Part shown: positions 49,811 to 59,842 of the stretch, piece by piece
Layout of the letters: the number at the start of each line of letters is the position of its first letter
How positions within the stretch are numbered: position 1 is the first letter of the stretch
DNA from: Candidatus Baltobacteraceae bacterium
GTDB lineage: Bacteria; Vulcanimicrobiota; Vulcanimicrobiia; Vulcanimicrobiales; Vulcanimicrobiaceae
Direction: 5' to 3'
Assembly: GCA_036488875.1 (NCBI GenBank)
Contig: DASXGW010000001.1
Location: forward strand, 372,001-436,000
Length of the DNA: 64,000 nucleotides
The notes under the pieces: generated by a model
The model's input: only the letters and a program-made list of their open reading frames with translations
Databases searched by the model: none
Told to the model about the DNA's origin: nothing
Made by a program: the position numbers and the translations under genes

Positions 49811-52800
49811 ATGGGGCGTGGCGCCTGGAAGAACGGTTGGACTTCCAATGCGACGCTGACGATTCTGCTGTCAATCGTCGGCGCCGTAACAATTGCCGCG
49901 ATGGTGACGGTCTACGTGCCGCACGCAACGTACGGCATGCAATTAGCCTGGCGCAACAACGGGTTCGGCGAACGAAATCTGGCGGTGACGTCGGTCCAGC
50001 GCGGCTCCGCGGCGGCGCGCGCGGGCTTGCAGCCCGGTGACGAGATTTTCGCCTTCGCCTCTCCCGCGGATCGCCTCGCCCTGGCGCTGCAGTCAAACCT
50101 AGGTACCGGCTGGTACCTCGCCGTCGGGCAACCCGCGTCGTTCTCAGTCGAGAACGCGTCGGGGCAGCGTCAGGTTGAGCTGCGCGCCGCGGCCGTCGAC
50201 ACGCATCGGCCGAAATGGTTCATGGAGGTCCGGCTGATCACGTACCTCTTGAGCGTGATCGTCGCCGGTCTGCTCGTGCTCTTTCGCCCCAGCGTCATCA
50301 CCTGGGGCTTTGCATTGTTCGTGATCCTCGCGGAGCAGCCGAACATTTTGCCGCTCGAGTTTTTCGGCCAACGCGGGTCGCCGCTGCTCTTTGCAGCAGC
50401 GCTGTTCGGGTTCGTCCCGTGCGTCGTTGCCGCGGGATTTCTCGGTTTGATTGCTTTTGCGGCGCGGTTCCCGAGCAATCGTCCGCAACCGGGCTTCGCC
50501 GTAATCGAGCGCGCCGCGTGGGCGTACATGGGCGCCGTCGTGCTGGCGTTCGTCGAACACTACGTCGCGGAATGTTACGGCTGGCCGTCGTTGTCGTTCG
50601 CGGCGCTGGTGAACTGGCTCTACTACGTGCCGGCGCTGCTCGCGATCGCCCTGCTGCTCCGCACGCTGCTACGATCGCGCGGCGACGCGCGCCACCGGCT
50701 CGTTTGGGCGATCGCAGGACCGTCGTTGGGCAGCCTGTTCACGGTGGCCAACGTGATCCTCGTCGCGATGCACGTGCCGTACGCCTACGCGGCCGCGTTT
50801 GGATTCTTATCGTCGCTCTCACCGCTTGCGATGGTGTACGCGATCGTTCGGCATCGCGTCATCGAGCTCGGCGAAGGCCTCGACGAACGGTTCGCGCATG
50901 CGATTCCGCACTCGGCGCCGTCGCAGCGCAAGCCGGGCCGGCGCGAACTGGTTCGGCGCGTCGCGCTCCTGTTTTCCGCCAAGGTGCCGCTGCACGGCGT
51001 CTATGCGCAACTCGCCGGCTTGCTCGCGCACTTCGTCGACGCCAGCAGCGTGCTGATCGCGGTCGGCAATAAAGACACCGCGCGCTTAGACTACAACTAC
51101 GAAGACGGCTCGGGTGCGCGGCCCGATAACGTCATCGTGCCGCCCGACAGCATCGTGGCGCAGGTGCTGCGAACGGGTCAGCCGGTGCTCTTTTGCCGCG
51201 AAGAAGATTGGCCCAGCAGCAAGCTGGTAAGCGTCGGCGGGCGCGAGACGCAAAATTCGGTTTCGGGCATCTTCGTGCCGGTTACTTTCGGCGGAACGAT
51301 CATCGGCGCGCTCAGCGTGCAATCTTTGACGCCGGACGCCTACGATCAAGACGACGTCTCGATGATGGAGACCTGCGCGCTCTATTTGAGCGCGCGTATG
51401 TACGACGAGGAACGCGCCGCGCACCGCCGCACGGGGCTCGTCGATCGCATCGCGTTCGATCGGGCGATCGCCGAACAATGGAAGCTCTCGGGGCGCACGG
51501 AGAAACCGCTGAGCGTCGTGCTGATCGACGTCGATTTGTTTGCTTCGTTCAACGACGCCTACGGCCACGTTGCCGGCGACACGTGTCTGCGGCAAATCGG
51601 CGGTATCGTCGAAGCGAGTGCAAAACACGAAGGCGACCTTGCCGCGCGATACGGGGAAGAAGAGTTCGCGGTGCTGCTTCCCGGCTGCGACGCCCCCGAC
51701 GCGATCGAGATCGCCGAGCAGATCCGCACGGCAGTGCGGGCGCTGGAAATCGAACACCAAGGATCGACGTTGGGAGCGGCCAGCGTGAGTGCCGGTGTCG
51801 CCACGTACGTTCCCGATGCGGCGCATCCGCCCGAGATCGTTATGGCCGCGGCAAACGCGCAGCTGCAGCGCGCCAAGGGCGAAGGACGCAATCGCGTCGC
51901 GGCCGACGGCTATGGCTCGAAGGCGCAAGAAGCGCGACGCCGCTCGACGGCGGAGCATCACGTCGCCCACGACGCAGGCTCGTTTGTTGGACGGCGATCG
52001 GATCTGGCGCGGTTAGAGCAACTGCTCGCAGAGAGCGCCGTGGTAACGGTGTTGGGGCAAGAGGGCGCGGGCAAGACGCGCACCGCACTTGCGCTCGTGC
52101 AGCGGTGCGGAGCCCGGTATCCCGACGGCGTGCGATTCGTCGATCTGCGCGCCGTCACGACGGCCGACGCCGTAGCCGGTACCGTTGCGTCGACGCTTTT
52201 TCCCGGACTCGAGCTCGAAGGCGCCGATGCCGCGCAGCTCGCCGAGCTGTTGCGCGGAAAAGAGCTGCTGCTGGTGCTCGATAACTCGACGCTCGTCGCC
52301 GATGCTTGCGCGTCGCTGACGAAGAGTCTGATCGCGCGCGCGCCGGGCACGCGCGTGTTGTGCACGACGAGCCGCCCGCTGCGGCTGGCCGAGGAGAAGA
52401 CCTACGAAATCGGCGAGCTCAGCGCTGACGAAGCGCGCGAACTGTTCGCCGACCGCGCGGGAGATAAGATAGACGGTGCATTCGAGCGCGCCGGCGGCAT
52501 GCCGCTCGTCGTGGAGCTCGCGGCGGCCGCGCCCGAACGACTGCCGGAGGCGCCCGAGGACGTGCAAGCGATGGTCGAGTGGAGCTGCGACCGTCTTTCC
52601 GCGCCGTATAAAGCAGTCGCGTATCGCCTCGGCATCTTCCCCGGCGATTTTGGCGAGGCGGCGGCCGCGTCGGTGTGTGCGGGCGGCGACGTCTCGAGCG
52701 ACGATGCCGGCGCGGCACTCGACGCGCTGGTCCGTCGGGCATTGGCAATTTGCACCGAACGCGACGGCGAGCGACGCTACTCGCTGCCGCCGGCGGTGCG

Positions 52801-53977
52801 TCAGCACGCGCGCGCGGCGTTGGCGGCGTCGGGCGAGATGCCCGCGGTCAAGAAGCGCTTCGTGGAGTATTTCGGCGCGTTCGCCGGACGTGCAACGTCG
52901 CGCAAGACGGAGCTTCCCTACGAAGCGTGGCTGCGCGCGCAACGCCGTGAGTTCGACAACTATCGCGCCGCGCTGCGCTTGGCGATCGACGAGGTGGACG
53001 ATCCCACGGCCGCCTCGTACGTATTACGGTCGCTCGCGGGATTGATTCTCGATCTCTCGCCCGGCAGCGAGTTCGCCAACGAGCTGCGGCGCGTAGTGCG
53101 TCCCGGCGATCTGCCGGCGACGGTCGAAGCCGGATTGCAGATGGCCTTGTCGGAGCTGCGGCGTTTCCGCGCGCCGGCCGAATCGCTGCGCTCGGCGCGT
53201 CGGGCGCTCGAATTGTACGCGAGCTCGGGTGACGAACTCGGCGCCGCATACGCACTGTGGCTGTCGGCGGCGGCGCAACTGCGCGAGCGCGGCGGCATCG
53301 ACGCCGCTTTCGAGCGCGCGCTGATCGACGGCGTGCAGGCCGCGAAACGCGCGCGCGATTGGCATCTTGCGGTCGGGCTGATGCGCAACCTGGCGTACGT
53401 GCAGTCCGATGCCGGACGCCACGAAGAGGCGCGCAAAACGTTGCGCGAAGCCGCGCTGGTGGCCGATCCCACCGACGTCGTGATGCTCGCCGCACTCTAC
53501 GGCAACACGGCGCTGGAAGAGTTTCGCGACGGCAAGATCGATACGGCGATCGCGATGTGGCGCCAGGCGGCCGCGCTGGTCGAAGTGGTGCGCCCGGCGT
53601 ACGCTGCGCTTTGTTTTGTGAACGCGGGCTTGGGCGAGCTCAAACGCGGCGACTTGATGGCCGCGCGCATCGCGCTGCGCAAAGGTTTAGCGACGTTGCG
53701 CGCTACGGGTCATGCGTTCGGCATCGCGCTGAGTTTCGATCACTTCGCGCGCCTGGCGAAGGCGGGCGCGTCATACGAGCGCGCGGCTCGTCTGGCCGGT
53801 TTCGCGCAAGCGTCGTTCGAACGCGGCGTCTCGCGGCCGGTCACGGAACAAGGCTTGTTCTACGAATTGACCGACGAACTGCGCCGGGAACTGGGTAATG
53901 CCGCGTACGAGCGGGAATGGAATCGCGGCCAGTGGATGACCTTAGACGAGGCAGTTTCGGAAGCGCACGCGGTGTAG
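49811..53977 (+). CDS. Giant signalling fusion: PDZ, membrane helices, GAF, GGDEF-like, STAND ATPase, TPR
   Basis: The single 1388-residue frame runs as follows. TM1 (15-37) is followed by a PDZ-like segment (VTSVQRGSAAARAGLQPGDEI, 55-110) and about seven TM helices (140-350). A GAF domain lies at about 395-540. A diguanylate-cyclase fold (545-705) has VVLIDVDLFASFNDAYGHVAGD and the signature at 615-619 as GEEEF, lacking the second Gly. A STAND NTPase has P-loop GQEGAGKTR (about 749-757) and LLLVLDNS as Walker B. TPR-like helices run to the C-terminus. No DNA-binding domain is seen. It probably senses envelope signals and couples a nucleotide-second-messenger module to an ATPase scaffold. Confidence 0.85.
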   Translation: MGRGAWKNGWTSNATLTILLSIVGAVTIAAMVTVYVPHATYGMQLAWRNNGFGERNLAVTSVQRGSAAARAGLQPGDEIFAFASPADRLALALQSNLGTGWYLAVGQPASFSVENASGQRQVELRAAAVDTHRPKWFMEVRLITYLLSVIVAGLLVLFRPSVITWGFALFVILAEQPNILPLEFFGQRGSPLLFAAALFGFVPCVVAAGFLGLIAFAARFPSNRPQPGFAVIERAAWAYMGAVVLAFVEHYVAECYGWPSLSFAALVNWLYYVPALLAIALLLRTLLRSRGDARHRLVWAIAGPSLGSLFTVANVILVAMHVPYAYAAAFGFLSSLSPLAMVYAIVRHRVIELGEGLDERFAHAIPHSAPSQRKPGRRELVRRVALLFSAKVPLHGVYAQLAGLLAHFVDASSVLIAVGNKDTARLDYNYEDGSGARPDNVIVPPDSIVAQVLRTGQPVLFCREEDWPSSKLVSVGGRETQNSVSGIFVPVTFGGTIIGALSVQSLTPDAYDQDDVSMMETCALYLSARMYDEERAAHRRTGLVDRIAFDRAIAEQWKLSGRTEKPLSVVLIDVDLFASFNDAYGHVAGDTCLRQIGGIVEASAKHEGDLAARYGEEEFAVLLPGCDAPDAIEIAEQIRTAVRALEIEHQGSTLGAASVSAGVATYVPDAAHPPEIVMAAANAQLQRAKGEGRNRVAADGYGSKAQEARRRSTAEHHVAHDAGSFVGRRSDLARLEQLLAESAVVTVLGQEGAGKTRTALALVQRCGARYPDGVRFVDLRAVTTADAVAGTVASTLFPGLELEGADAAQLAELLRGKELLLVLDNSTLVADACASLTKSLIARAPGTRVLCTTSRPLRLAEEKTYEIGELSADEARELFADRAGDKIDGAFERAGGMPLVVELAAAAPERLPEAPEDVQAMVEWSCDRLSAPYKAVAYRLGIFPGDFGEAAAASVCAGGDVSSDDAGAALDALVRRALAICTERDGERRYSLPPAVRQHARAALAASGEMPAVKKRFVEYFGAFAGRATSRKTELPYEAWLRAQRREFDNYRAALRLAIDEVDDPTAASYVLRSLAGLILDLSPGSEFANELRRVVRPGDLPATVEAGLQMALSELRRFRAPAESLRSARRALELYASSGDELGAAYALWLSAAAQLRERGGIDAAFERALIDGVQAAKRARDWHLAVGLMRNLAYVQSDAGRHEEARKTLREAALVADPTDVVMLAALYGNTALEEFRDGKIDTAIAMWRQAAALVEVVRPAYAALCFVNAGLGELKRGDLMAARIALRKGLATLRATGHAFGIALSFDHFARLAKAGASYERAARLAGFAQASFERGVSRPVTEQGLFYELTDELRRELGNAAYEREWNRGQWMTLDEAVSEAHAV

Positions 53978-53991
53978 CCGCGGATGCGTGG

Positions 53992-54657
53992 ATGCTCTTT
54001 CTCGACGAACTCGACGGCCGCGCACTGCGCGAACGATGTCTACCGTGGCTCGCTTCCGACGAAGTAGCGCGGTATCGCGCCCTGTCGACCGATCGATTGC
54101 AATTGCGCTATCTTGCGAGCATCGCGCTGTGCCGCCGGTCGCTGTCGCAGTATGCGCCGGTCGATCCGCCGGCATGGCGGTTCAGGCGAAGTGTGTCCGG
54201 CAAACCGGCGATCGCAGCGCCGCTGCAACGCCCGTCGCTACGGTTTAGTCTGTCGAGAACCGACGGACTTGCGGTCTGTCTCGTTACATCGGCGGGGGCG
54301 GCAGGTGTGGATGTGGAGAGCACGTCGCGAACCGTCGACACGGCCGCCGTCGCGCGAGACTTCCTTTCCGCAGCGCAACGTCAGCAACTCGAGACGTTGC
54401 CGCCGGTCGAACAAACGCGAAGCCTCTTTAAGCTTTGGGTGCTGCACGAGGCGTATGTGAAAGGCACGGGGAGAGGGCTAGGCGCAACGCCCGAGCGGGT
54501 ACGCGTCGGGTTCGGCGCCGGCGGCGCTCCGCTGCCGATGGGAAACTGGCGGCTGTTCTTTTACGAGCCCAGCGCAACGCACGTCGCAGCGGCGGCCATA
54601 CGGCCGCGCGACGGCGCCGACGTTACCGTTACCTGGCTACGAGCGAGCTTATTCTAA
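53992..54657 (+). CDS. Sfp-type 4'-phosphopantetheinyl transferase
   Basis: The 221-residue enzyme transfers phosphopantetheine from CoA to a carrier-protein Ser. Motifs are VSGKPAI, LRFSLSRTDGLAVCLVT, GVDVES (Mg-binding Asp) and FKLWVLHEAYVKGTGRGL. In the last, the usual KEAY is HEAY; the Glu and following Lys are kept. ATG 53992 is used; the frame is open upstream inside the previous gene, so translation may be coupled. It is the natural activator of the A-PCP protein encoded at 58061-59842. It is convergent, overlapping by nine bases, with the first acyltransferase gene. Confidence 0.88.
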   Translation: MLFLDELDGRALRERCLPWLASDEVARYRALSTDRLQLRYLASIALCRRSLSQYAPVDPPAWRFRRSVSGKPAIAAPLQRPSLRFSLSRTDGLAVCLVTSAGAAGVDVESTSRTVDTAAVARDFLSAAQRQQLETLPPVEQTRSLFKLWVLHEAYVKGTGRGLGATPERVRVGFGAGGAPLPMGNWRLFFYEPSATHVAAAAIRPRDGADVTVTWLRASLF

Positions 54658-55782
54658 ACTCGCGTCGCCGTCAAAGACCGACGGGTCCCAAGCGGACTCA
54701 CGCTTTAGCTCGGTCGCGAGGCGCTCGTCGCCCGCGCGATAGAAGAACGGCCAGTTGTCCAGCGTTCGGACGTAAGGCGCGCATCGGTCTAAGCCGCACA
54801 TCTTAGGAACGTCTCGCCCGGGATTCTCGAAGACGCCGACATCGTCGCGCGCGCTCATCTCAAGCGCGGCGTGAAGCAGATCGGGTAAGAGATCGACGTC
54901 CTCGCCGAGGGTTTGGTAATCGACCAGACGCATTGCTCGCAGCGGCGAGCGCGGTTGGCGTTTGCAAATGCAGTACGCGAGCATGCGACCGTTACGAGAA
55001 GCGGTCAAGATCCACAGTCGCCCGTCGCGAAGCGGGCGTGAGAAGTGCCACGACAGCGTCGCGGCGTCGCGCACTGCCAATAACGTTTCCGGCCGGCGGC
55101 GGCAAAGTTCGCCCCAAAATGCGTCGAACCGCGCGTCGAAACCGTCGAGCGCTTCGACCGTAACGTTAGCATTGCGGGTAGGAAGCGGTTTTCGACTGAG
55201 GGCATCGGTTAGGCGCAACGCCGCTCCGGCGGGGATGGCGAGCGCGCCGGCAAACGGGAGCTTCCGCCGCACCAGTGCCTGCTTTGCGACGACGCGATGC
55301 GCGGCAATCCAGTACGAAACCTTGTTCCATTGACCGACGGGAATGCGGCCGGCACAGTGTTCGAGTAGTCCAAACGCCAACGGCCCGGCGGTGGTGCTGA
55401 TGCAGACGTCGGCCGACGCCTGGTTGAAGTATTCGTCTAAGAGCAATAACGCGAGTCCGCGATACGGTGGGGCGACGACCCATCCGCGGCTGTTGGCAGC
55501 GATCAGACGCTCTCCGCGAAACGCGTACGATGACGGCACGTTCGAAAAGGAGCCGACGATCTCGCCGCCGCCGGCTTCGAGCACCCATCCGATCGGCCAA
55601 CCGTTGCCAAGCCGCTCCCACAACGGGTTGTGTATCCAAAGATCGCGCCAGTCGTCGAGCGACACGACCGCAAACGAATAAGCCTCGCCCAAGCGCATGA
55701 TGCCTTCGTAGTCCGAAAACCGCGCTTCACGAAGCTGCGGAGCAGCCGGAGGCGCCGCGCTACTCGAAGCTGACGTCTCCAT
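54649..55782 (-). CDS. GNAT-like acyltransferase, paralogue A
   Basis: ATG 55782 has AGGA four bases upstream. The 377-residue protein starts with a GNAT-style domain (LREARFSDYEGIMRLGEAYSF, IGWVLEAGGGEIVGSFSNVP, GWVVAPPYRGLALLLLDEYF). It ends in a second half carrying LAYCICKRQ and VDYQTLGEDVDLLPDLLHAAL and a C-terminal NWPFFYRAGDERL. The layout matches the next gene throughout, so the two are tandem paralogues. Two-domain GNAT proteins of this size move acyl or aminoacyl groups to amines. It overlaps paralogue B by 23 bp. Confidence 0.7.
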   Translation of the reverse strand: METSASSSAAPPAAPQLREARFSDYEGIMRLGEAYSFAVVSLDDWRDLWIHNPLWERLGNGWPIGWVLEAGGGEIVGSFSNVPSSYAFRGERLIAANSRGWVVAPPYRGLALLLLDEYFNQASADVCISTTAGPLAFGLLEHCAGRIPVGQWNKVSYWIAAHRVVAKQALVRRKLPFAGALAIPAGAALRLTDALSRKPLPTRNANVTVEALDGFDARFDAFWGELCRRRPETLLAVRDAATLSWHFSRPLRDGRLWILTASRNGRMLAYCICKRQPRSPLRAMRLVDYQTLGEDVDLLPDLLHAALEMSARDDVGVFENPGRDVPKMCGLDRCAPYVRTLDNWPFFYRAGDERLATELKRESAWDPSVFDGDASLE

Positions 55783-56818
55783 CGTATCCTGAGGGATCCC
55801 AGCGCTCCGGCCGGCGCAGCTCGCCGTCGAGCGCCGCATCGGCCGCACGGTAATAGAACTTCCAGTTCTCCAACTCTTCGCAATGCGGAGCGCATTCGTC
55901 GACGACGCGCATCTTCGGTACGCCGCGCCCGAGCATCTCGAGAATATCGAGATCCTCGCTTCGGCAACGCTCGAGCGCGGCGCGAAGGAAATCGGGCAAG
56001 AAGTCGATCTCCGGTTCGATGCTCTGATAGTCGACGAGGCGCATGCCGGGAAGCTGCGTATCGCCGTAAGGCAACGCCGGTAGCCGAAAGGCGTGATCTT
56101 GACGGGTCAACGTGCAATACGCGCGAAGATTGCCGCCGCGCGACGCCGTAAACGTCCAAAGACGTCCCTTGCGCATCGGAGCGGCGAAATGCCAACTCAA
56201 AACGTCGGCGCTGCGATCGGCCAAAAGCACGTCGGGGTTTTGCCGGCGAAGCTCTTTCCAGAACGTATCGAACCGCGAATCGAAGCGATCGACGGCTTCA
56301 ATCGTCGGAGAACTCGTGCTGCGCGGGAGCTCTTTGGCAAGCGTTGGGTGTCGCGTTACCCAATACGAGATTCTGTCCCAACGTCCCAGCGGAACGGGAC
56401 TGCAAAACTGCGCAAACGCGTCGTGGGCGGGGGCGCTGACGGCATTGTTGAGCACGAGGTCGACGCCTGGCTGATTGAGGTATGCGTCCATGAGCTCGAG
56501 CGCCATCGGCCGATACGACGGGTAAACGAACCACGCGCGGGCTACGGCCGCAGTCAGATCTTGGCCGCGAAACGTGTACGGCGCGTGCACGGTGCCCATG
56601 CATCCGACCATCTCGCCGCGCTCGGTTTCCAACACCCACCCGATCGGATAATCTTTTCCCCGTCGAGTCCGCACCGGATTGTCGCGCCACAAACCGCTCC
56701 AATCTTCGAACACGGGAACGTCGAGTCCATGGGCGCGCGCCAACCCCGCAATGCGCTCGTAGTCGCGCAACGCGGCCGGGCGCAAGCGCGTCGGTGCCAT
56801 CGATTCGGCGACCTTCAC
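55760..56818 (-). CDS. GNAT-like acyltransferase, paralogue B
   Basis: GTG 56818 overlaps the P450 stop as GTGA, fixing the start despite a longer open frame. The 352-residue product shows the same blocks as paralogue A (LRPAALRDYERIAGLARAHG, IGWVLETERGEMVGCMGTVH, AWFVYPSYRPMALELMDAYL, VDYQSIEPEIDFLPDFLRAAL, NWKFYYRAADAAL, and a DGDVSFE end matching DGDASLE). There is no signal peptide. By position it acts on the product of the A-PCP/P450 pair. I cannot assign donor or acceptor from sequence alone. Confidence 0.7.
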   Translation of the reverse strand: MKVAESMAPTRLRPAALRDYERIAGLARAHGLDVPVFEDWSGLWRDNPVRTRRGKDYPIGWVLETERGEMVGCMGTVHAPYTFRGQDLTAAVARAWFVYPSYRPMALELMDAYLNQPGVDLVLNNAVSAPAHDAFAQFCSPVPLGRWDRISYWVTRHPTLAKELPRSTSSPTIEAVDRFDSRFDTFWKELRRQNPDVLLADRSADVLSWHFAAPMRKGRLWTFTASRGGNLRAYCTLTRQDHAFRLPALPYGDTQLPGMRLVDYQSIEPEIDFLPDFLRAALERCRSEDLDILEMLGRGVPKMRVVDECAPHCEELENWKFYYRAADAALDGELRRPERWDPSGYDGDVSFE

Positions 56819-58053
56819 GATCCGGTTTCGTAGGAAATCGGCAGGGTGGTCAAACCGCGCAGCCCGAGGTTTTGGCGCCACACGGGCTTCTCGCACGTCG
56901 ACGTCAAGGTGGAGAACCGGCGCAGCAGCGTTTCGAATGCGATCTGCCCTTCCAGACGCGCCAGCGGTGCTCCGAAGCAAAAGTGCGCGGCCCACCCGAA
57001 TGCCAGATGCCGATTATCCGTTCGATCGAAATCGACGCGATCGGGTTCGGGGAATCGCTCGGGATCGCGGTTTCCGGCTGCCATGACGGCAATCACCGCG
57101 TCGCGTTTGCGCATCTGCTTGCCGCCCAGGGTCACGTCGCGCGGAGCGAGACGCGCCGTGAGCTGGCTCGGGCTTTCGTATCGCAGCAGCTCTTCGACGG
57201 CTGCCTTCACGAGCTGCGGTTCCCGGCGCAGACGCTCGAGTTGCTCGGGGTTACGCAAAAGCGTCAGCAGGCCGTTGCCGATCAAATTCGTGGTCGTCTC
57301 TTGTCCGCCGACCATCGTGACGATGCAGTTCGCGACGATCTCGTCGTCGCTCAAACGATCTCCGTCGACTTCGCTCGATAAAAGAGAATGAACCAGTCCG
57401 GGCCGCGGGCGCTTTCGCTGCTCTCGAACGGCGTTATGAAAGTAAGTGGTAAGGTTTTCGACGGCTTCCAAAACGCCGCCGAGCAGGTCGGGATTGTGTT
57501 GGAAGTTTCCGAGCATTCCGGCAAAGGCAGCCGACCAATCCTTGAGCCGAGGGTGGTCTTCGACCGGAACGCCGAGCATTTCGGCGGTCACGATCGCCGG
57601 CAACGGCTCGGCGAAGTCGGCGAGCGCGTCCATCGTGCCGGTGCCTCGCGCTACGATCTCGTCGACGAGCCGGTTTGCTATCTGTTCGATATGATCGCGC
57701 AGCAAACGCACGCGCGCCGGCATAAAAGCGGGTGCGGCGAGCGTTCGCAATCGGGTGTGAGCCGGCGGATCCATGAACAGCATCTGTTTGACCATCACCT
57801 TGGCGACCGGACTCACCTCGGGGACGCCTAAGGTCTCGAAGTACTCGGGCGGGGGCGTGCGATCCGCCGAAAAACGCGTCAAGACGGTTATCACGTCCTG
57901 GTAGCGAGTGACGACCCACGCGTGGAGATAGGGATCCCAATGCACCGGGTCTTCGCTGCGAAGCCGCCGATAGAGCGGATAGGGATCGGCCAGCACGTCC
58001 GGATCCAGCAGGTAATGGAGGCTCAGGTCTTGCTCGGCTACCTTACCGTACAC
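56815..58053 (-). CDS. Cytochrome P450 (bacterial class I type)
   Basis: The 412-residue soluble P450 has the I-helix oxygen-binding motif VGGQETTTNLIG, the K-helix ExxR in EELLRYESP, and the heme loop FGWAAHFCFGAPLARLE with Cys ligand; the second Gly of the usual FGxGxHxCxG is Ala. The length and motifs resemble CYP107/109-like enzymes. It starts with GTG 58053, seven bases after the A-PCP gene stop, and overlaps the next gene by four bases. P450s next to a stand-alone A-PCP commonly hydroxylate the aminoacyl-PCP at the beta carbon (NovI/NovH, NikQ/NikP1). No ferredoxin gene is present. Confidence 0.92.
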   Translation of the reverse strand: MYGKVAEQDLSLHYLLDPDVLADPYPLYRRLRSEDPVHWDPYLHAWVVTRYQDVITVLTRFSADRTPPPEYFETLGVPEVSPVAKVMVKQMLFMDPPAHTRLRTLAAPAFMPARVRLLRDHIEQIANRLVDEIVARGTGTMDALADFAEPLPAIVTAEMLGVPVEDHPRLKDWSAAFAGMLGNFQHNPDLLGGVLEAVENLTTYFHNAVREQRKRPRPGLVHSLLSSEVDGDRLSDDEIVANCIVTMVGGQETTTNLIGNGLLTLLRNPEQLERLRREPQLVKAAVEELLRYESPSQLTARLAPRDVTLGGKQMRKRDAVIAVMAAGNRDPERFPEPDRVDFDRTDNRHLAFGWAAHFCFGAPLARLEGQIAFETLLRRFSTLTSTCEKPVWRQNLGLRGLTTLPISYETGS

Positions 58054-58060
58054 GACATAC

Positions 58061-59842
58061 CTAGGCGTACGTCCCGGTTTTCAAGCGCGTCACTTCGGTG
58101 GACAACGCCGCGACGGTCGGCGCGGTAAAGACCTGGCGAAGCGTGAGCTTTACACCGAACGCGTCGTGGATTCGCGCCACAAGTTGCACGGCAAGCATGG
58201 AGTGGCCGCCGATCAAGAAGAAGTTGGCTTGCGGGTCGATGGACGATTGCTCCAGCAGGGATCCGACCATGGTTGCGATATCCCGCTGCACGCCTTCGTC
58301 GGGCGGCGCCGCCGTCGCAGAATCGCCCGAATCGTTCGGCAGGCGATTCGCTTCGCACGGAAGCGGAAGCCCGGATCGATCGAGCTTGCCGTTTGCGGTT
58401 TGCGGGAGTGACGGCAGCGATACGAACGATGAGGGAATCATATACTCGGGCAGCTTGGCTGTAAGTGCCGTACGCAAACCGGTCGCCGTGAGACGCGCTC
58501 CATCGGCGGCGACGACGTAAGCGACGAGCGCCGGATCGGCCGGCGACGCGGTGCGTGCGACGACCGCGCTGCACGCCACGCCGGTACATTCGTTGAGGCG
58601 CGCCACGATTTCGCCCGGCTCTACGCGATGTCCGCGAATCTGCACTTGGTCGTCGAGGCGCCCGAGAAACTCGATTTCGCCGTTTTCGAGCAGTCGCGCG
58701 CGGTCGCCGGTGCGATAGATGCGCTGCAACGATCCGCCGGCGCCGGTATATTCTACAAACGCCTTTGCGGTGGCGTCGGGCAGATGCCGATACCCACGGG
58801 TGACGAGCGCGCCGGCCAAACACAACTCCCCGGCGTGACCCGACGGCACGGCGTTGAGTTCTTCGTCGAGAATCAGCGCCGTTGCGTTGGTAATCGGACG
58901 CCCGATCGAGGGGCGTTCGTTCGTGTCTTCGGGGGACACGACGCCGGACGTCGCGACGACCGTACACTCCGTCGGCCCGTAGTTGTTGACCAGAGCGAAA
59001 GGCAGCTCGCGATTGGGCCGGCGGCGCAGTACGTCTCCACCGGTCAGTAGGTAGCGCAGACGCGTGTTTTCCGGCCACGACATGGCGATCATCGGTTCCG
59101 CGAGGATCGTCGGAACGAAACCGATCGTAATGCGTTGCTCGACAAGCCACTGCTGCAGTTGATCGGCCGATCGCCGTACCTCTTCGCCCGCGACGACGAT
59201 CGCTGCTCCGGCCGCAAGATATGGCCAGATCTCCCACACGGCGGCATCGAAGCCAAGGCCGGCGACCAAGCTGGCACAGTCAGCCGAGGTGACGTCAAAC
59301 GCTCGCCGATGCCAATCGATCAAGTTGGCGAGGTTTGCGTGGGTGACTTCCACGCCTTTGGGTTGCCCCGACGAGCCGGACGTATAAATAATGTAGGCGA
59401 CGCTTTCCGGGTCGGGTTGCGCAACCGTGAAGCGCGAAGTGTCAAGCGCAGGCAGGTCGTCGACGTCCACCGTCAGCCACGAGCCCTGCGGTAAACGATC
59501 CATTCGGTTCGGCTGCGTGACCAGCGCGGTCGCGCCCGCGTTTTCGAGAATGAATGCCGCTCGATCGACCGGCGTCGAAGGGTCGAGCGGCACGTAAGCC
59601 GCGCCGGCTTTTACGATGCCCAGCGCAGCGACCACGAAGCGAGCGGATCGCTCGACGAGCACGCCGGCGCAGCGCCCCGGACCCACCCCCGCTTCGCGCA
59701 GGCGCATCGCAAGCCGGGTCGATTTTTCGTCGAGCCCGGCATACGTCAAGCGCTCGCACGCATCGGCTACCGCGACGCTCTCGGCCGCAGAGTCGTCCCG
59801 TCTCGAACGGATGATGTCCACGATCTCATAGTAGGTCTGCAA
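58061..59842 (-). CDS. Stand-alone NRPS adenylation-PCP didomain (predicted leucine-activating)
   Basis: The 593-residue protein has an A domain with YIIYTSGSSGQPKGVEVTH (A3), NNYGPTE (A5), YRTGDRARL (A7), GRLDDQVQIRGHRVEPGEI (A8) and NGKLDR (A10). A carrier domain follows with FFLIGGHSML; the Ser takes phosphopantetheine. There is no condensation or thioesterase domain. Aligning by eye with GrsA PheA gives the ten specificity residues DAWFLGNVVK, which I recall as the Leu(1) signature. It starts with TTG 59842 after GAGG. Downstream in the operon are the P450 and two GNAT genes. Confidence 0.92.
   Translation of the reverse strand: MQTYYEIVDIIRSRRDDSAAESVAVADACERLTYAGLDEKSTRLAMRLREAGVGPGRCAGVLVERSARFVVAALGIVKAGAAYVPLDPSTPVDRAAFILENAGATALVTQPNRMDRLPQGSWLTVDVDDLPALDTSRFTVAQPDPESVAYIIYTSGSSGQPKGVEVTHANLANLIDWHRRAFDVTSADCASLVAGLGFDAAVWEIWPYLAAGAAIVVAGEEVRRSADQLQQWLVEQRITIGFVPTILAEPMIAMSWPENTRLRYLLTGGDVLRRRPNRELPFALVNNYGPTECTVVATSGVVSPEDTNERPSIGRPITNATALILDEELNAVPSGHAGELCLAGALVTRGYRHLPDATAKAFVEYTGAGGSLQRIYRTGDRARLLENGEIEFLGRLDDQVQIRGHRVEPGEIVARLNECTGVACSAVVARTASPADPALVAYVVAADGARLTATGLRTALTAKLPEYMIPSSFVSLPSLPQTANGKLDRSGLPLPCEANRLPNDSGDSATAAPPDEGVQRDIATMVGSLLEQSSIDPQANFFLIGGHSMLAVQLVARIHDAFGVKLTLRQVFTAPTVAALSTEVTRLKTGTYA

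Follow-up and report, generated by a model that had tools for sequence, protein, structure and literature searches.

In the resting state, STAND proteins that have a TPR sensor are monomers with bound ADP; once inducer and ATP are bound, they assemble into head-to-tail multimers (PMC6468293). A STAND domain is also predicted behind the cyclase domains of full-length soluble adenylyl cyclase, for which no regulator acting specifically through that domain has been found (PMC12802110). In other NTPase-linked conflict systems GGDEF rarely takes the place of the cyclase (PMC7159879). Clostridium thermocellum has a kinase-TPR-GGDEF protein, for which a description appeared in 2005 (PMC1262709). The synthesis of cyclic di-GMP (c-di-GMP) requires homodimerization of the GGDEF domain, and GGDEF proteins that have degenerated are known to contact other GGDEF proteins (PMC5635695). 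Here we analyze a gene located in a 64,000-nucleotide stretch of the genome of an uncultured Candidatus Baltobacteraceae bacterium of the phylum Eremiobacterota (the stretch is hereafter the window, positions counted from its first letter). The gene occupies 49811..53977 on the forward (+) strand, an open frame of 1388 codons, and its product combines a transmembrane (TM) helix, a PDZ domain, seven further TM helices (7TM), a GAF domain, a degenerate GGDEF domain, a STAND ATPase and a TPR tail. Judging from its sequence, we give about even chances to the reading that this is a membrane-anchored member of a family with a GAF-GGDEF head directly on a STAND switch and a TPR tail, that its own dead head would act through protein contact, and that its intact relatives would be STAND-gated cyclases.

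The closest working analogues of this family are the class III cyclase-STAND-TPR proteins (ADCY10 and the bacterial cyclase/NB-ARC proteins), which also have an N-terminal cyclase-type domain and then a STAND P-loop, to which the bacterial proteins add a TPR tail. Two such proteins (L154 and L157) are found in the same phylum, one of them in the window's own genome. Unlike them, the window protein carries a degenerate GGDEF domain behind a GAF domain, plus a PDZ-7TM membrane sensor; a Pfam search found no class III cyclase domain (Guanylate_cyc) in it, but GGDEF instead. GGDEF, GAF and a STAND-type ATPase share one chain in the Pkinase-AAA_16-(TPR)-GAF-GGDEF proteins of Frankia (L047) and Marinobacterium (L084, the one with TPR), although there the order is reversed, the GGDEF domain being C-terminal and the head a kinase, and PDZ-7TM is absent; the window protein has no Ser/Thr kinase head and its STAND domain is not placed first. 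PH0952 and MalT resemble it in their NOD, winged helix and TPR fold, but are cytosolic and carry a DNA-binding effector where the window protein has GAF-GGDEF. Finally, CdgI of Escherichia coli likewise has a GGDEF fold that lacks the catalytic signature and contacts other GGDEF proteins, but it keeps its I-site and binds c-di-GMP (PMC5635695), whereas the window protein has lost the I-site and has a STAND hub. A previous reading of this DNA, made from the letters alone (the sequence-only reading), knew of no described protein that joins GGDEF directly to STAND and TPR behind a PDZ-7TM sensor. The literature searched, the coverage of which is incomplete, yielded no account of the GAF-GGDEF-STAND-TPR order, so this part stands for the direct order; as a general statement on GGDEF and STAND it is too strong, since the reverse order exists in Frankia and Marinobacterium, and soluble adenylyl cyclase is an established case of a nucleotide cyclase followed by a STAND domain (PMC12802110). 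We therefore regard the architecture as a variant and not as a wholly new kind.

Domain architecture and predicted structure

The protein starts with an N-terminal transmembrane anchor (amino acids 5-33, 49823..49909), recognized by hydropathy and as helix H5-33 of the AlphaFold2 (AF2) model. It is followed by a PDZ domain predicted to be periplasmic (amino acids 38-129, 49922..50197) and by the seven-TM module (amino acids 135-347, 50213..50851), for which hydropathy and the AF2 helices between 135 and 347 agree. The PDZ_6 profile of Pfam, at amino acids 59-81, barely exceeds its threshold (27.4 bits, with a cut-off of 27), while the GAF domain (amino acids 395-527, 50993..51391; GAF 9e-8, GAF_2 1.1e-9) and the GGDEF-fold domain (amino acids 541-695, 51431..51895; E 1.7e-36) are matched with confidence. 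The P-loop ATPase yields only weak AAA/nSTAND matches (amino acids 724-881), and those to TPR profiles are sub-threshold, TPR_12 being matched in 14 of 21 family members. Nevertheless, the motifs of the STAND nucleotide-binding domain (amino acids 723-905, 51977..52525) are intact: GQEGAGKT (Walker A, amino acids 749-756, 52055..52078, from the family alignment), LLLVLDN (Walker B), TSR and GGMPL (GxP). No helix-turn-helix or other DNA-binding domain of the SARP/BTAD or LuxR type was matched by Pfam.

Structure prediction fills in what the sequence profiles miss, and with it the STAND and TPR anatomy. AF2 modeled amino acids 1-371 as one TM helix, a PDZ-type sandwich and seven more TM helices (pLDDT 83.7, pTM 0.81), and amino acids 372-1388 as GAF, GGDEF, NOD, a winged helix and a TPR-type superhelix (pLDDT 84.6, pTM 0.57). 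When compared using Foldseek, the PDZ part resembles DegP/DegS/HtrA (best E 3.9e-3, prob 1.00), no structure stands out as a match for the 7TM part, and the STAND domain is similar to PH0952 (6mfv) and Apaf-1. PH0952, a STAND-TPR protein, is the best broad match (691 columns, E 8.6e-13, TMt 0.61). The winged-helix part of the NOD (amino acids 906-1020, 52526..52870) is defined by the family alignment, AF2 and the 6mfv match, and the TPR-type tail (amino acids 1021-1388, 52871..53974) by AF2 helical hairpins and by VIA matches to the TPRs of Rap/NprR/LGN (Z 21-27). The GAF fold was matched in the AF2 and VIA comparison, and the GGDEF model superposes on that of WspR with an rmsd of 1.0-1.4 A for the best rows. 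The structure prediction that the sequence-only reading had called for thus recovers both sets of folds, and the anatomy it had drawn, from PDZ sensor to TPR in one protein, is therefore correct, though the GGDEF/GGEEF signature is absent.

The same reading took the frame to be continuous and free of a fusion artifact, and this is borne out. Among 60 related genomes searched, one from another genus (G010) encodes a protein of 1448 amino acids (L024) that matches residues 9-1382 of the query with 41% identity (E 1.6e-294) and shares every part with it, from the sensor through GAF, GGDEF, NOD and winged helix to TPR. A tree of the winged-helix-TPR part joins the two as sisters (SH-aLRT 100). The existence of this full-length homologue rules out a fusion by chance or assembly. 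A break in the frame or an unusual composition is unsupported as well, as codon-position GC is even throughout.

A lineage-specific family

We collected the family from the spanning matches of a GGDEF-NOD profile search in 149 genomes of the phylum Eremiobacterota. A total of 53 distinct GAF-GGDEF-STAND(-TPR) proteins were obtained from 36 of these genomes, in 18 genera; 52 belong to the window's taxonomic family and the remaining one to another family of the same class. The order GAF-GGDEF-STAND-TPR is thus a recurrent, lineage-specific architecture within the sample. Members are typically soluble proteins of about 1000-1100 amino acids that begin at the GAF domain. With its PDZ-7TM part and membrane location the window protein is atypical, as nearly all relatives are soluble, and its genome also codes for three intact paralogues. 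In another genome, two GAF-GGDEF-STAND-TPR genes stand in tandem (L035, G017:C35).

Outside the phylum, no spanning match was found in 937 genomes, namely 246 from the phylum of Frankia, 194 from that of Nostoc, 299 from that of Massilia and 198 from one deltaproteobacterial phylum, in searches that scored the best candidates per genome under strict thresholds, with no in-sample positive control, and that strongly diverged fusions could escape. The sample excludes Chloroflexota and other STAND-rich phyla. A contig scan with conserved peptides was swamped by unfused GGDEF proteins, because the chosen peptides lie in GGDEF, and says nothing on distribution. A phage or plasmid origin was discarded, with no record covering 80% of the query, as was a defense system, for which PADLOC yielded just a weak P-loop match to mad8.

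Degeneration of the GGDEF domain

The A-site GG[DE]EF is kept in 50 of the 53 family members, most of which also keep RxxD. The window protein is one of the three exceptions: its A-site motif (amino acids 613-619, 51647..51667) reads RYGEEEF where relatives have RYGGEEF, the second Gly being replaced by Glu (codons GGG GAA GAA GAG). The other two are L169 (GGKEF) and L178 (GEDQF). The latter, a soluble protein (L178:1430-4531, genome G013), has a degenerate site too (RSGEDQF, RPSS), and given this case the cyclase site seems to have been lost more than once. Further changes accompany that of the A-site in the window protein. DxDxFK of the relatives has become DVDLFA (Lys to Ala), the NR of DxLTGxxNR has become DR, and the I-site RxxD is replaced by HEGD (amino acids 606-609). 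In the family alignment, 11 residues are missing at the GAF-GGDEF hinge (amino acids 540/541, 51428..51433), which takes away the last part of the connecting helix together with D-x-L from DxLTGxxNR; of the 21 aligned proteins, only that of the window has this deletion. Mean identity to the family is lower for its GGDEF domain than for that of any other of the 21 members, with GAF and TPR at or above the median. Taken together, these substitutions suggest that the cyclase head of the window protein probably no longer makes or senses c-di-GMP.

Some observations weigh against the reading we favor, that of a dead head acting by contact. The GGDEF fold persists, as do the two metal Asp residues, D573 and D575, and some GTP binding or activity may remain. 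The sister in G010 has GGEEF and FK, though its I-site is HDEG instead of RxxD, so that within the membrane subgroup a lost signature is on record for a single sequence, that of the window. Moreover, the window protein has no DNA-binding or other output domain, and with a pTM of 0.57 the relative placement of domains in the cytoplasmic model is uncertain. Even with GEEEF, the window protein could still function as a diguanylate cyclase or be a cyclase with a different specificity: the fold is well predicted, and besides the metal Asp residues, ND, YGHxxGD and the K of the C-terminal AK motif are conserved. We consider this unlikely, as the second Gly of GG[DE]EF, the Lys of DxDxFK, the DxL and the hinge residues are all gone from what is the most divergent GGDEF domain of the set.

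The degenerate domain could also serve as a c-di-GMP receptor that feeds the level of the messenger into the STAND hub, which is how the sequence-only reading understood it. CdgI, whose degenerate GGDEF domain has an intact I-site, does bind c-di-GMP (PMC5635695), and the genome contains a large c-di-GMP network, with 30 GGDEF, 12 EAL and 11 PilZ matches over cut-off. However, the I-site motif RxxD, conserved in nearly all other relatives, has been replaced both in the window protein and in its sole full-length sister, which makes a receptor very unlikely. Because the catalytic-signature and I-site residues are lost, the proposed link to the c-di-GMP state is unsupported for the window protein, although it is plausible for its intact relatives.

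Another possibility is decay, of the whole gene or just of the part that encodes GGDEF, with no specific role left. The GGDEF-NOD (core) tree could not place the window protein, which sits on a long branch (1.51), and no full-length copy was found among the matches of a genome of the same genus (G001). On the other hand, all 1388 codons are open with their codon-position GC kept, the NOD motifs are intact, GAF and TPR are as similar to the family as stated above, and the branch of the winged-helix-TPR tree is not flagged as long. Decay is decidedly unlikely in view of these data.

Modules shared within the phylum

The PDZ-7TM module was matched in 71 of the 149 Eremiobacterota genomes. The copies examined are mostly about 600 amino acids long, with a GAF-like end and no recognized output; L185-L202 form an expanded PDZ-7TM-GAF-like family of about 570-620 amino acids with no recognized catalytic output. 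Three longer PDZ-7TM proteins (L203:206-3982, L204:1417-5331 and L205:1518-5480; about 1260-1320 amino acids) have a C-terminal BTAD domain, with Trans_reg_C also in L203 and L204, and are apparently membrane-bound SARP-type regulators. Within the phylum, other heads are found on the STAND-TPR chassis, including a class III cyclase (L154, L157) and TM-GAF (L151, L155). On the evidence of these matches, both halves are shuffled modules, and the window gene is best described as two locally common ones joined around a GGDEF head.

Two other proteins of the phylum were noted. L156:492-3245 (G083) is a TIR-STAND-TPR protein of NLR-like architecture. L040:441-4286 (G010:C61) has the order AAA_16-TPR-LuxR helix-turn-helix-GAF-GGDEF, a LAL-type regulator with a GAF-GGDEF tail and another junction between a STAND-type ATPase and GGDEF.

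Gene neighborhood

Downstream of the sensor gene lies a 4'-phosphopantetheinyl transferase (PPTase) gene (53992..54657, + strand; Pfam ACPS 3.2e-10), whose likely ATG is about 15 nt past the stop of the sensor gene and which is a possible operon partner. On the opposite (-) strand follow two tandem genes for similar proteins with no Pfam matches (54649-55848 and 55760-56995), a P450 (56815-58053) and an AMP-binding-PCP (A-PCP) didomain (58061-59842). The region 53992-59842 has the appearance of a small cluster similar to those of non-ribosomal peptide synthetases (NRPS-like). The window protein could be the pathway regulator of this cluster in the manner of AfsR/LAL proteins, since the PPTase gene directly follows its own in the same orientation, A-PCP and P450 are encoded 3-6 kb away and its STAND-TPR part is AfsR-like. 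Such a role is quite unlikely considering that Pfam detected no DNA-binding domain, that A-PCP and P450 are encoded on the other strand and that the PPTase neighborhood was not found beside the G010 homologue. As the homologue does not share it, a regulatory link to the biosynthetic cluster is possible but weak. Further downstream, an open reading frame at 61292-62956 matches GINT1_N (glucosamine inositolphosphorylceramide transferase 1, N-terminal; E 1.7e-39). To our knowledge, this domain is not expected in bacteria.

Discussion

How the family might work can be outlined for its intact relatives. The TPR tail would bind an inducer, which together with exchange of ADP for ATP would open the NOD, and head-to-tail multimerization would then bring the GGDEF heads together and switch on c-di-GMP synthesis, because the GGDEF domain works only as a dimer. 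Such proteins would be the c-di-GMP equivalent of the cyclase-STAND-TPR proteins, and the GGDEF, EAL and PilZ matches counted above show that the other components of c-di-GMP signaling are encoded in the genome. In the window protein, the cyclase head would be a structural or contact domain, and a periplasmic cue perceived through PDZ-7TM, along with the ligand of the GAF domain, would set the state of a membrane STAND hub. Its output would most likely occur by protein contact, in hetero-oligomers with intact paralogues or with another partner. By analogy with other degenerate GGDEF proteins, we prefer hetero-oligomers with the three paralogues of the same genome, an unproven output.

A bolder and more doubtful form of this proposal is that Eremiobacterota possess diguanylate cyclases gated by STAND domains through NLR-like, ATP-driven oligomers, and that the window protein is a dead membrane subunit passing periplasmic signals into hetero-oligomers with its active paralogues. 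If this were true, c-di-GMP synthesis would be tied directly to an NLR-like oligomeric switch, and the window copy would constitute a natural dead-enzyme control. The effect of a STAND domain on the cyclase attached to it, a question that soluble adenylyl cyclase also poses, would then become testable in a simple bacterial protein.

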